NCBI RefSeq assembly: GCF_002005105.1
Contig: NZ_MSCV01000011.1
Location: forward strand, 62,001 to 126,000
Origin: Methylocaldum sp. 14B
GTDB taxonomy: Bacteria; Pseudomonadota; Gammaproteobacteria; Methylococcales; Methylococcaceae
Direction: 5' to 3'
Length of the DNA: 64,000 nucleotides
Shown: piece by piece, positions 6,316 through 19,320 of the stretch
How the letters are laid out: every line of letters starts with the position of its first letter
Numbering within the stretch: the stretch's first letter is position 1
The notes under the pieces: generated by a model
The model's input: only the letters and a program-made list of their open reading frames with translations
Databases searched by the model: none
Told to the model about the DNA's origin: nothing
Program-made: the position numbers and the translations under genes

Positions 6316-6481
6316 CCGCGGTTTAGCGGCGAGGATCGGGAGTTTGTAGGTCGGCAATCCTTTGCCGACAAACCCGCTGCGTCGGGAAGGGTCGCGACTA
6401 AAGCGACCGTTTGCGATTGGGAAAGGATGCCGACCTACTGCACCTTCGGGCGCCACGCCAAACCGGAAAAATGCTATAGAG
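6316..6481. repeat. Intergenic palindromic repeat, copy 2, carrying a nested hairpin unit
   Basis: This is the second copy of the repeat at 4185-4336, with the same flanking blocks (GGTTTAGCGG; TTTGTAGGTCGGCAATCC; GCCGACCTACT; CGCCACGCCAA-CCGGAAAA). Between the two GCCGAC arms it holds an extra hairpin unit (6386-6420) that copy 1 lacks. It fills most of the 357-base gap between the PaaK-like gene and nrdB. I see no gene in that gap. Confidence 0.75.
6386..6420 (+). repeat. Hairpin repeat unit (loop GACTAAA, tail GTTTGCGATTGG), single copy
   Basis: Stem GGTCGC (6390-6395) and GCGACC (6403-6408) enclose the loop GACTAAA, followed by the tail GTTTGCGATTGG (6409-6420). The same loop and tail recur in the cluster at 18426-18674 with different, still complementary, stems. 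This copy sits inside another repeat, so the unit behaves like a separate insertion. Confidence 0.8.
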
Positions 6482-17145: not shown

Positions 17146-18288
17146 ATGCAAAGCGTGCGGGAATGGTTGAGTGACTGGGTCAAGCGAGTGCTGCCGAACT
17201 CGCAGGCCGTCTCTTTCGCAATTCTTTTGATCGTCGGTTTCGTGCTGGTGATCAGTTTGGGGCAGATGCTCATGCCGGTATTCGCGGCAGGCGTCATTGC
17301 CTATCTGCTGGAAGGCCTAGTCGCGATCGGCGTGCGGAAAAAGCTGCCCCGCCTTGCCGCAGTCATCATCGTCTACGTACTTTTCCTCGCTTTTCTATTG
17401 TTTTTGTTCGTCGCACTCCTGCCGCTCCTTTATCAGCAAACCGTGCAACTCATAGAGCAGCTGCCGGCTTGGATGAACCGCGGACAAATGCTGGTGATGC
17501 AGCTGCCGCAGCAGTATCCGAACTTCATTACCGAGGAACAGATCTACGAATTGACCGGCGTGGTACGGAGAGAACTCCTCGCCTGGGGCCAATCCATGCT
17601 GACTTATTCGTACGCGTCCTTGGTCAGCGCCATCACTTTGATCGTCTATCTGATCCTGGTGCCGTTGCTGGTGTTTTTCTTCCTTAAAGACAAGGACTAC
17701 ATCCTCGGTTGGTTTAGCCAATACATGCCCCGCGACCGCAATCTTTCTACCCGTGTGTGGCGCGAGGTAGACATGCAAATCGGAAATTACGTACGCGGAA
17801 AGTTCTTCGAGGTCACGGTGCTGCTCGCCGTCAGCTATGCGGTGTTCTCGCTGATGGGGCTCAATTACTCGCTGCTGCTCGCGGTGCTGATGGGGCTCTC
17901 GGTGATCATTCCCTACGTCGGCGCGACATTGGTAACGTTTCCGGTGATGATCGTGGCTTTCTTCCAGTGGGGACTCACCGACGATTTTTGGTATTTGCTG
18001 CTGGCTTACGGCATCATTCAGGCCCTGGACGGGGTCGTATTAGTACCGCTGCTGTTTTCCGAAGTGGTCAACCTGCACCCGGTGGCCATCATCGTCGCCA
18101 TCTTGTTTTTCGGCGGGTTCTGGGGATTCTGGGGCGTGTTTTTCGCCATTCCCTTGGCGACATTGGTCAAGGCGGTACTGGCGGCTTGGCCGCGATTGGG
18201 GGAAGAGGAAATTCCGCCGGAAGACGCCGCCCCGGCTCAGTTGGTAAAACCACCCAAAACCATACCCTTGAGCCGGGAGCAGGTTTAA
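17146..18288 (+). CDS. AI-2E/PerM family transporter
   Basis: This 380-residue membrane protein has the family layout: two N-terminal helices (AILLIVGFVLVISLG, VITAYL-type segment), a pair of helices around residue 65-90, a long extracytoplasmic/amphipathic middle (EQLPAWMNRGQMLVMQLPQQ), then four to five helices with VYLILVPLLVFFFLKDKD and GLSVIIPYVGATLV. The family includes AI-2 exporter TqsA and Na+/H+ antiporters; substrate here is unknown. The C-terminus is a soluble Pro/Glu-rich tail. It is divergent from nrdA across the NrdR boxes. A related gene lies at 29420-30505. Confidence 0.85.
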   Translation: MQSVREWLSDWVKRVLPNSQAVSFAILLIVGFVLVISLGQMLMPVFAAGVIAYLLEGLVAIGVRKKLPRLAAVIIVYVLFLAFLLFLFVALLPLLYQQTVQLIEQLPAWMNRGQMLVMQLPQQYPNFITEEQIYELTGVVRRELLAWGQSMLTYSYASLVSAITLIVYLILVPLLVFFFLKDKDYILGWFSQYMPRDRNLSTRVWREVDMQIGNYVRGKFFEVTVLLAVSYAVFSLMGLNYSLLLAVLMGLSVIIPYVGATLVTFPVMIVAFFQWGLTDDFWYLLLAYGIIQALDGVVLVPLLFSEVVNLHPVAIIVAILFFGGFWGFWGVFFAIPLATLVKAVLAAWPRLGEEEIPPEDAAPAQLVKPPKTIPLSREQV

Positions 18289-18425
18289 ACCCGCATTTCT
18301 CACCCTCCTTCGTAGCGACGGCGTCGAAACGCCGCTGTGGCGCGCCGCACGGACTGAGCGACGGCGGAGGCGTAGCCGACACTACGTCGAGCCGCCGTGC
18401 CAAGGCTATAGGATGTGCCGACCAA

Positions 18426-18674
18426 GGAAGGGTTGCGACTAAAGCAACCGTTTGCGATTGGGTGCATCGCTCGCGAACGATGCCTGTCCTGAGCCCAGTC
18501 GAAGGGCGGTTCGTTCTTCACAGCATCCTACGGCCTCTGTTTGCAATTGGGACGGCGTCCGTAGTAGGAAGGGTCGCTTCGGCGCTCCCGAAGCGACCGT
18601 TTGCGATTGGAAGGGGCCGACTAAAGGCCCGTTTGCGATTGGAAGGTCGCGACTAAAGCGACGTTTGCGATTGG
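18426..18674 (+). repeat. Cluster of hairpin repeats with variable stems, constant loop and tail
   Basis: Five tail motifs GTTTGCGATTGG (one degenerate, GTTTGCAATTGG at about 18539-18550) occur here. Unit 1 (18431-18461) has stem GGTTGC/GCAACC; unit 3 (18572-18610) has GGTCGCTTCGG/CCGAAGCGACC; unit 4 (18614-18642) has GGGCC/GGCCC; unit 5 (18646-18674) has GTCGC/GCGAC. Units 1, 4 and 5 share the loop GACTAAA. Stems differ but remain complementary, so the hairpin itself seems conserved. The 411-base gap between the AI-2E transporter and rlmE holds this cluster and other dyads, and no gene. Confidence 0.85.
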
Positions 18675-18699
18675 AGGAGAGTGAGAAATGCGGGTTAAT

Positions 18700-19320
18700 C
18701 TACGATTTTCTCGACTTGGCCACCAAATAGACTTCGGGGCTTCGATCCCGCGAAGCTTTGGGTTTTCGCACCGACACCTTGCCGAACATCTGGCGGGATT
18801 TCCGCACGAAGTCGTCGAAGTCGGGTCCTTGGAACAGCTTGGCCACGAAGCTCCCGCCGGGCTTGAGGAGCTGTTCGGCGGTATCGAGAGCCAATTCGGC
18901 GAGATACATCGCTCTTGCCTGATCCACAACGCGCGCGCCGCTCATGTTGGGCGCCATATCGGATAAAATCAGGTCGACCGGCCGGCCCTCCAGTTTCGCC
19001 TGCAACTGCTCCAATACGGATTCTTCCCGAAAATCGCCCTGAATTGCGGTCACACCCGGAATCGCTTCCATCGGCAGAAGATCAAGCGCTATAATTTCGC
19101 CGCTTTTTCCGATCCGCTCAGCTGCGTACTGGGACCAACCGCCCGGCGCGGCTCCCAAGTCCAGCACCACCATGCCCGGCTTGAACAAGTGCTCCCGCTC
19201 GTCCAATTCTTTCAGCTTAAACACCGCCCGTGAGCGGTAGCCAAGCGCTTGGGCTTGTTTTACATATTCGTCGGAAAAGTGTTCGGCCAGCCAACGACGG
19301 CTGCTTCGACTACGCGGCAT
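18700..19320 (-). CDS. rlmE: 23S rRNA (uridine-2'-O) methyltransferase RlmE (FtsJ/RrmJ)
   Basis: This 206-residue Rossmann methyltransferase uses SAM to methylate U2552 (E. coli numbering) in the A loop of 23S rRNA, a late step of 50S assembly. [13 protein letters not shown] carries the first catalytic Lys, [16 protein letters not shown] is the SAM-binding motif [14 protein letters not shown] holds the catalytic Asp, and [11 protein letters not shown] the second Lys. The length matches E. coli RlmE. It is head to head with yhbY, the conserved gammaproteobacterial arrangement, with only 6 bases between the two start codons. Confidence 0.95.

Follow-up and report, generated by a model that had tools for sequence, protein, structure and literature searches.

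What are the short hairpin repeats between an AI-2E family transporter gene and rlmE in Methylocaldum sp. 14B, and why do their stems vary in sequence from copy to copy? The window, meaning the whole 64,000-nt stretch of DNA that was analyzed, contains the transporter gene as an open reading frame at 17146-18288 on the plus strand (Pfam AI-2E_transport, E 5.7e-65) and rlmE, encoding an FtsJ-like methyltransferase, at 18700-19320 on the minus strand (Pfam FtsJ, E 2.6e-63). The two genes form a convergent pair, and the entire cluster lies in the gap between them, as had been noted in the original prediction. That prediction also described six units with four different stems, and attributed the matched changes on the two stem arms to selection on folded RNA or extruded DNA.

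The cluster comprises four full units and one remnant tail rather than six units, all on the plus strand. Unit 1 (18426-18461) is of a short class and has the stem GGTTGC/GCAACC (18431-18436 and 18444-18449) with the loop GACTAAA (37.9 bits). Unit 2 (18567-18610; 72.0 bits) is of a long class and is indeed the expected unit with an 11-bp stem and another loop: the arms GGTCGCTTCGG and CCGAAGCGACC, at 18572-18582 and 18588-18598, enclose CGCTC. Units 3 (18609-18642) and 4 (18641-18674) are again short, with 5-bp stems GGGCC/GGCCC and GTCGC/GCGAC, respectively. Unit 3 overlaps both neighbors by GG and scores just 12.8 bits (E 0.42) with R1, a long-class model; unit 4 scores 30.0 bits. The candidate remnant (18500-18550) gave a weak model match (13.1 bits, E 0.36) and ends in the degenerate tail GTTTGCAATTGG at 18539-18550. 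Three of the four predicted stems are thus present in the cluster. The fourth, GGTCGC/GCGACC, belongs to a separate plus-strand unit at 6385-6420 (loop GACTAAA; 39.1 bits), which sits inside a REP arm (left GTCG, right GGGAAAGGATGCCGACCTAC). With up to one mismatch allowed, the tail GTTTGCGATTGG occurs six times in the window against 0.60 expected (100 shuffles, maximum 3). The interval between units 1 and 2 also contains a TGCATCGCTCGCGAACGATGC and TGTCCTGAGCCCAGTCGAAGGG stretch (18462-18520).

Beyond what had been predicted, the cluster is part of a larger inverted-repeat element at 18283-18696, a dispersed element without assigned strand whose near-palindromic ends are AACCCGCATTTCTCAC ... 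GTGAGAAATGCGGGTT. Similar copies with different inner content occur in loci L075 and L132. In the three genomes with a resolved gap (G002, G003 and G005), the AI-2E/rlmE gap is short and contains neither a unit nor the outer element.

Family size, anatomy and stem pairing

The units belong to a dispersed family of hairpin repeats, as predicted. The pattern GGAAGG N8-38 GTTTGCGATTGG has 240 exact matches genome-wide and its reversed form none; for GACTAAA N3-15 GTTTGCGATTGG, the corresponding numbers are 98 and none, so that the proposed search for further genomic copies came out in favor of a family. The anatomy of the units was evaluated in a sample of 61 stretches totaling 1,171,547 bases, or 21% of the genome (1.17 of 5.62 Mb). 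In this sample, 228 tails were listed; removal of 12 weak ones gave 216 units, which are grouped into 107 clusters, and 55 of these clusters hold two to six units. Short units are 34 or 36 nt long, with stems of 5-6 bp and a GACTAAA-like loop. Long units measure 44 nt; their stem offers 11 pair positions, and their loop is of the CGCTC type (the GGCGCTCC loop). Both classes share their ends, starting with GGAAGG and ending with GTTTGCGATTGG. In chains, consecutive units overlap by GG, giving a repeating segment of 32, 34 or 42 nt. The feet GGAAG and GTTTG are invariant or at least 90% conserved in 38 long forms.

The GGAAGG N8-38 GTTTGCGATTGG pattern was found in 11 of 101 searched genomes (own included) and in 8 of 32 genera, three of the 11 positive genomes having just one or two matches each. 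Real units are present in the Methylococcaceae MAG STB_183 (L060, L061) and in a MAG filed as Methyloversatilis, DYIL01 (L062, L064-L066). Matches in L063, L067, L247 and L248 are chance-like, lacking the unit context, and were rejected. A model search across the class (185 genomes, strict filters, few genomes from the own family) recovered the own genome, the one other match being weak (30.8 bits). Carriage of a 421-nt block on plasmids was rejected, as blastn against 72,556 plasmid records gave no match to it. Separately, an IMG/VR viral contig carries a short-class unit at L249:5907-5940 with a flank resembling those in L060/L061; this may reflect a prophage or a binning error.

The two arms of the long class change together. 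Pairing holds in 91.3% of pair cells across the 46 distinct long units, against a mean of 70.4% and a maximum of 74.7% in 1000 shuffles, none of which reached the observed value; mispaired stems, which would have counted against the original prediction, are thus the minority. Two-sided change occurs at nine of the 11 pairs, a count matched by five of the 1000 shuffles, and the number of pair types was matched by 88; the unit copies being related, these and the following shuffle figures are not probabilities. In 38 chosen long sequences, 95.7% of cells are paired and the covariation score is 0.668 versus 0.192; none of 500 shuffles reached the observed percentage or the observed score. Slid controls for the same 38 dropped to 33-56% paired. 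The short class alone is weak: 14 chosen sequences show two-sided change at one of six pairs, and 48 of 500 shuffles reached their score. The predicted matching of the arms therefore holds strongly against shuffles for the long class and weakly for the short class by itself.

Selection on folded RNA or extruded DNA is one possible source of this covariation. Template switching during DNA replication has been described as able to create and maintain hairpins (PMC8794818), and switching from arm to arm can give the same pattern, so that pairing need not imply selection. Correction of one arm by the other is incomplete, since a G-A mismatch is retained at one pair in 13 of the 46 distinct long units. 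The covariation may stem from selection or from template switching. As DNA, the window units are predicted to form hairpins with z scores of -4.8 for the long unit and -2.6, -1.9 and -1.8 for the short ones. A known structured RNA family was rejected as a candidate: the Rfam 15 covariance models gave no match up to E 5 in the 1.3 kb around the cluster (17900-19200).

Insertion boundary, target and host palindromes

The insertion boundary was determined by joining the flanks of 111 chains, with the segment from GGAAGG to GATT omitted, and seeking uninterrupted copies of the joined flanks in the same sample. Seventeen chains with a unit tail as their left flank were excluded, as in these the joined flanks match the chain itself. 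Using up to one mismatch per 24 nt, an uninterrupted counterpart existed at offset 0 for 44 of the remaining 94 chains, representing 27 distinct sequences, and for 50 it did not. One chain matched at offset -1, two at +1, and none at -4 to -2 or +2 to +4. With zero mismatches allowed, 19 chains matched at offset 0 and none at any other offset. In a control of mispaired flanks, swapped across chains, there were 72 matches in 1809. The boundaries are thus precise. In 78 of 82 same-strand clusters, the GG of the unit is followed by A or GA, the GG itself being in part a search criterion. Insertion is beside a short fixed motif and without target duplication. A MITE with target duplication was rejected as a candidate: GGAAGG at one end and GCGATTGG at the other do not form an inverted repeat, and the joined flanks match empty copies without duplication. 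At one locus, L120, G003 has an empty site at the orthologous position, with an accuracy of about one base; the site in G001 may hold a decayed unit, and G002 has no alignment there.

The hosts are largely palindromes, and the left and right flanks of a cluster are often two parts of one palindrome. Assigning host types to the 107 clusters by fuzzy pattern, we found 61 in arms of RAYT-type REPs, of which the same sample contains 164 uninterrupted copies. Another nine clusters lie in another unit, eight in CGTC-like repeats (a label that rests on the CGTC start), five in each of two further repeats and 19 elsewhere. Within REPs, the insertion site is in the arm, not the loop; inverted units occur in the loops of other units. 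Both nesting and tandem chains are present, in addition to the target context described above. Sorted by flanking context, the 82 same-strand clusters form 35 groups with at most 21 members each, and the unit sites L118, L120, L131 and L140 lie in otherwise different sequence. Immediately at the insertion site, the flanks show modest palindromy, which reaches at least 7 bp in five of the 35 context groups versus 2.1% in mispaired controls, and at least 5 bp in seven of 35 versus 9.8% (p 0.05). In another genus, represented by genome G017, the hosts are CCCTCTCCC..GGGAGAGGG and CCTTCCCCCT..AGGGGGAAGG palindromes. For two of 12 chains in that genome an uninterrupted copy exists, in each case at offset 0, against none of 1511 in the control.

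We consider it probable that the units constitute a REP-like, non-autonomous family of mobile hairpins that insert 5' of GGA without duplicating the target. The fixed insertion boundary points to a mobile unit, and in this respect bears out the earlier view that the repeats are not the result of mere duplication. The transposing segment would be the 32, 34 or 42 nt from GGAAGG through the hairpin to ...GTTTGCGATT, and the point of insertion would be exactly 5' of GGA (or GGGA), the target not being duplicated. Read on the other strand, the segment would be 5'-AATCGCAAACGG-hairpin-CCCTTCC-3', placed 3' of CC (mostly TCC) and itself ending in TTCC at the 3' end, a layout that would follow the logic of the IS200/IS605 single-strand elements. 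Since the unit carries its own GGA target, it could be re-targeted, yielding head-to-tail chains with a 2-nt overlap. The inverted units in the loops of other units suggest an order of insertion, and copy number would in part reflect hitch-hiking in larger host repeats. Such movement would proceed through single-stranded intermediates, with a Y1/HUH-type enzyme supplied in trans. In a group 3 REPtron, GTAG is described as a guide, and changing it to GTGG moved TnpA(REP) cleavage to CC (PMC8266576). In the other-strand reading, the 5' foot of the unit ends in GG; together with the junction at CC, it would fit this guide rule by analogy.

A tentative reading is that of a minimal mobile hairpin of 32-42 nt that would prey on palindromic repeats, REPs included. 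Its recognition would depend on the fixed ends and on there being a stem, whatever the sequence of that stem, and it would insert 5' of GGA while the target is single-stranded or extruded, using an enzyme other than the host RAYTs.

It is unlikely, in our assessment, that the family spread passively, that is, by rare insertion followed by amplification in host REPs or MITEs, tandem slippage and gene conversion, with template switching keeping the stems paired. Such spread would account for the flanks common to many clusters and for the recurrence of host elements with GAAAACGCTCTAA-like ends, and template switching can provide the hairpins (PMC8794818). However, the number of context groups, including the four unlike sites named above, the hosts of different sequence in another genus and the single fixed boundary all require a precise insertion step. 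The retained G-A mismatch likewise argues against complete correction of the arms.

Candidate enzymes and gene context

The own genome contains seven Y1_Tnp genes, none of which is a clear partner for the units. Three of the seven are each flanked on both sides by a particular GTAG REP type and are called RAYTs here, based on the Y1 domain and the flanking REPs. A repeat identity as the cognate REP of a RAYT was rejected for the units, as the RAYT genes carry other REPs: the Y1 loci L071 (C4:82438), L073 (C31:23280) and L074 (C21:80217) have the GTAG REP types GGGCGGGTTAGCG, GGCTGGGACGAGCG and GGTCGGCAATCC, respectively. An inverted unit pair lies approximately 0.17 kb from the C4:82438 gene, beyond that gene's own GTAG REP; the nearest repeats on both sides are GTAG REPs. 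Among the many Y1 matches in relatives, the 29 loci examined (2.0-3.4 kb each) were rejected as sources of a mover, none of them containing a full unit. There is no gene inside the units. In the 1.17 of 5.62 Mb sampled, we saw neither an autonomous element with unit ends around a gene nor, in the same 21% of the genome, an insertion sequence with such ends. One of the 5'-half types sought lacks the tail and carries an inserted host-type repeat. As separate observations, G003 C1 has 31 Y1_Tnp matches, several of them equal-scoring; five of the 13 exact-pattern units of G017 lie within 42 kb (C1:2190071-2231953), and a Y1 gene with a weak HTH match is located at 2234983, approximately 3 kb from this group.

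It is doubtful that the units are mobilized in trans by a resident RAYT, with that of the GTAGGTCGG REPs as the foremost candidate, through recognition of a REP-like hairpin whose foot is GAAG instead of GTAG. GAAG does stand directly 5' of the unit stem, where REPs have GTAG, and the 61 clusters in REP arms are within REPs of the GTAGGTCGG type. Nevertheless, the junctions are not at CT, and the orthology of one RAYT, traced in 30 genomes, does not track the presence of units. G003 has a close orthologue (91%), as does G001 (85%, with a stop). In the unit-bearing genomes G005 and G017, the best matches are 38 and 37%, respectively, and three other unit-bearing genomes (G006, G009 and G016) have no match at 1e-10. 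Conversely, exact-pattern units are absent from G033, which carries a 55% homologue.

Units also occur in coding genes. At L118:9817-9903, two 42-nt units stand in tandem and in frame within a TrbC-type conjugation gene for pilus assembly. Aligned against two homologues from Methylomonas, the pair corresponds to a gap of exactly 28 residues; homologues from Azospirillum and Edwardsiella are also without the insert, which falls within a gap of 33. Among intergenic clusters, convergent gaps are somewhat favored (20 of 51 versus 22% of intergenic random points), in a crude count in which 46 of the 107 clusters fall inside gene calls that may run through repeats and which is of no use for coding location. 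This enrichment and the predicted DNA hairpins are compatible with a fold, of RNA or DNA, that is kept because it serves gene expression, for instance by protecting mRNA 3' ends or binding gyrase, but we regard such a role as very improbable given the lack of Rfam matches around the cluster, the unit-free gap in G002, G003 and G005, and the nesting and coding insertions, which fit mobility better.

A further unit, of 35 nt, is in frame near the end of the signal peptide in an outer membrane efflux protein gene (L157:9053-9088), and the surrounding 801-base stretch is 100% identical in G002.

Comparison with known palindromic elements

One survey sorts REPs into GTAG and CGTC families, some members of which are inserted in palindromes or genes (PMC3733652). 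The units resemble the GTAG REPs, REPINs and BIMEs associated with RAYTs in being short, high-copy palindromes that occur singly, in pairs or in clusters and have variable, compensated stems (PMC3733652), here within the 5-13 bp used to define GTAG REPs. In contrast to these, the units have no unpaired GTAG, or listed degenerate form of it, at the end of the palindrome. They possess a 12-nt conserved tail and two hairpin classes with the same ends, and they do not flank a RAYT gene, being nearest to none of the Y1 genes examined. CGTC REPs are likewise described as palindromes without a dedicated transposase, and some are nested in larger palindromes, as for the CGTC-1 dimers of H. neapolitanus; that account leaves open how such orphan hairpins spread (PMC3733652). 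The units differ from these in having no CGTC tag and in their loops and tails, and CGTC-like repeats serve them as host sites. The family thus shares its way of life with REPs and, failing both tag tests, is a member of neither the GTAG nor the CGTC family. No description of it was found in the literature searched, which included PMC12306157; a text search for the tail letters led to papers with titles on other subjects.

REPs have been described as hot spots for insertion sequences (PMC1525189), and clusters as arising from REPINs inserted into or beside REPINs (PMC3116915). ISPpu9, ISPpu10, ISPa11 and others resemble the units in using REP palindromes as insertion sites (PMC1525189). They are full insertion sequences with a transposase, whereas the units are hairpin invaders of 34-44 nt. 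The nesting also indicates that REPs are targeted by other hairpins, not by insertion sequences alone. Elements of the IS200/IS605 family insert beside a short fixed motif without target duplication. The units share with them and with their non-autonomous derivatives (PATEs) a hairpin, an adjoining short fixed motif and the absence of target duplication, but consist of one hairpin in 32-42 nt and carry no gene. Nor was the bias of that family toward the lagging-strand template seen for the units in G003, where a small sample gave 18 versus 13 clusters, with four mixed (p 0.47). For this comparison, the origin was placed at approximately 4.05 Mb and the terminus at approximately 1.05 Mb from the GC skew of 20 samples, of which the 0-kb sample was opposite in sign.

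In 44 of 94 chains, comparison with uninterrupted host copies from the same genome fixes the insertion boundary at single-base precision, and the host palindromes differ between two genera. The ends, hairpin and target therefore provide a concrete substrate for testing biochemically which enzyme moves orphan palindromes. Because stem identity is free while the ends and pairing are kept, the family also separates recognition of structure from recognition of sequence.

Rickettsial palindromic elements insert in frame in coding genes, as the units can, and differ from the units in sequence, host group and size. These elements have been linked to CGTC REPs (PMC3733652). As a final observation on the repeats of this genome, a dispersed host element with the ends TTAGAGCRTTTTC / GAAAAYGCTCTAA (L136:12026-12204 and many other loci) carries paired REPs and units, and one copy of it sits inside a unit.
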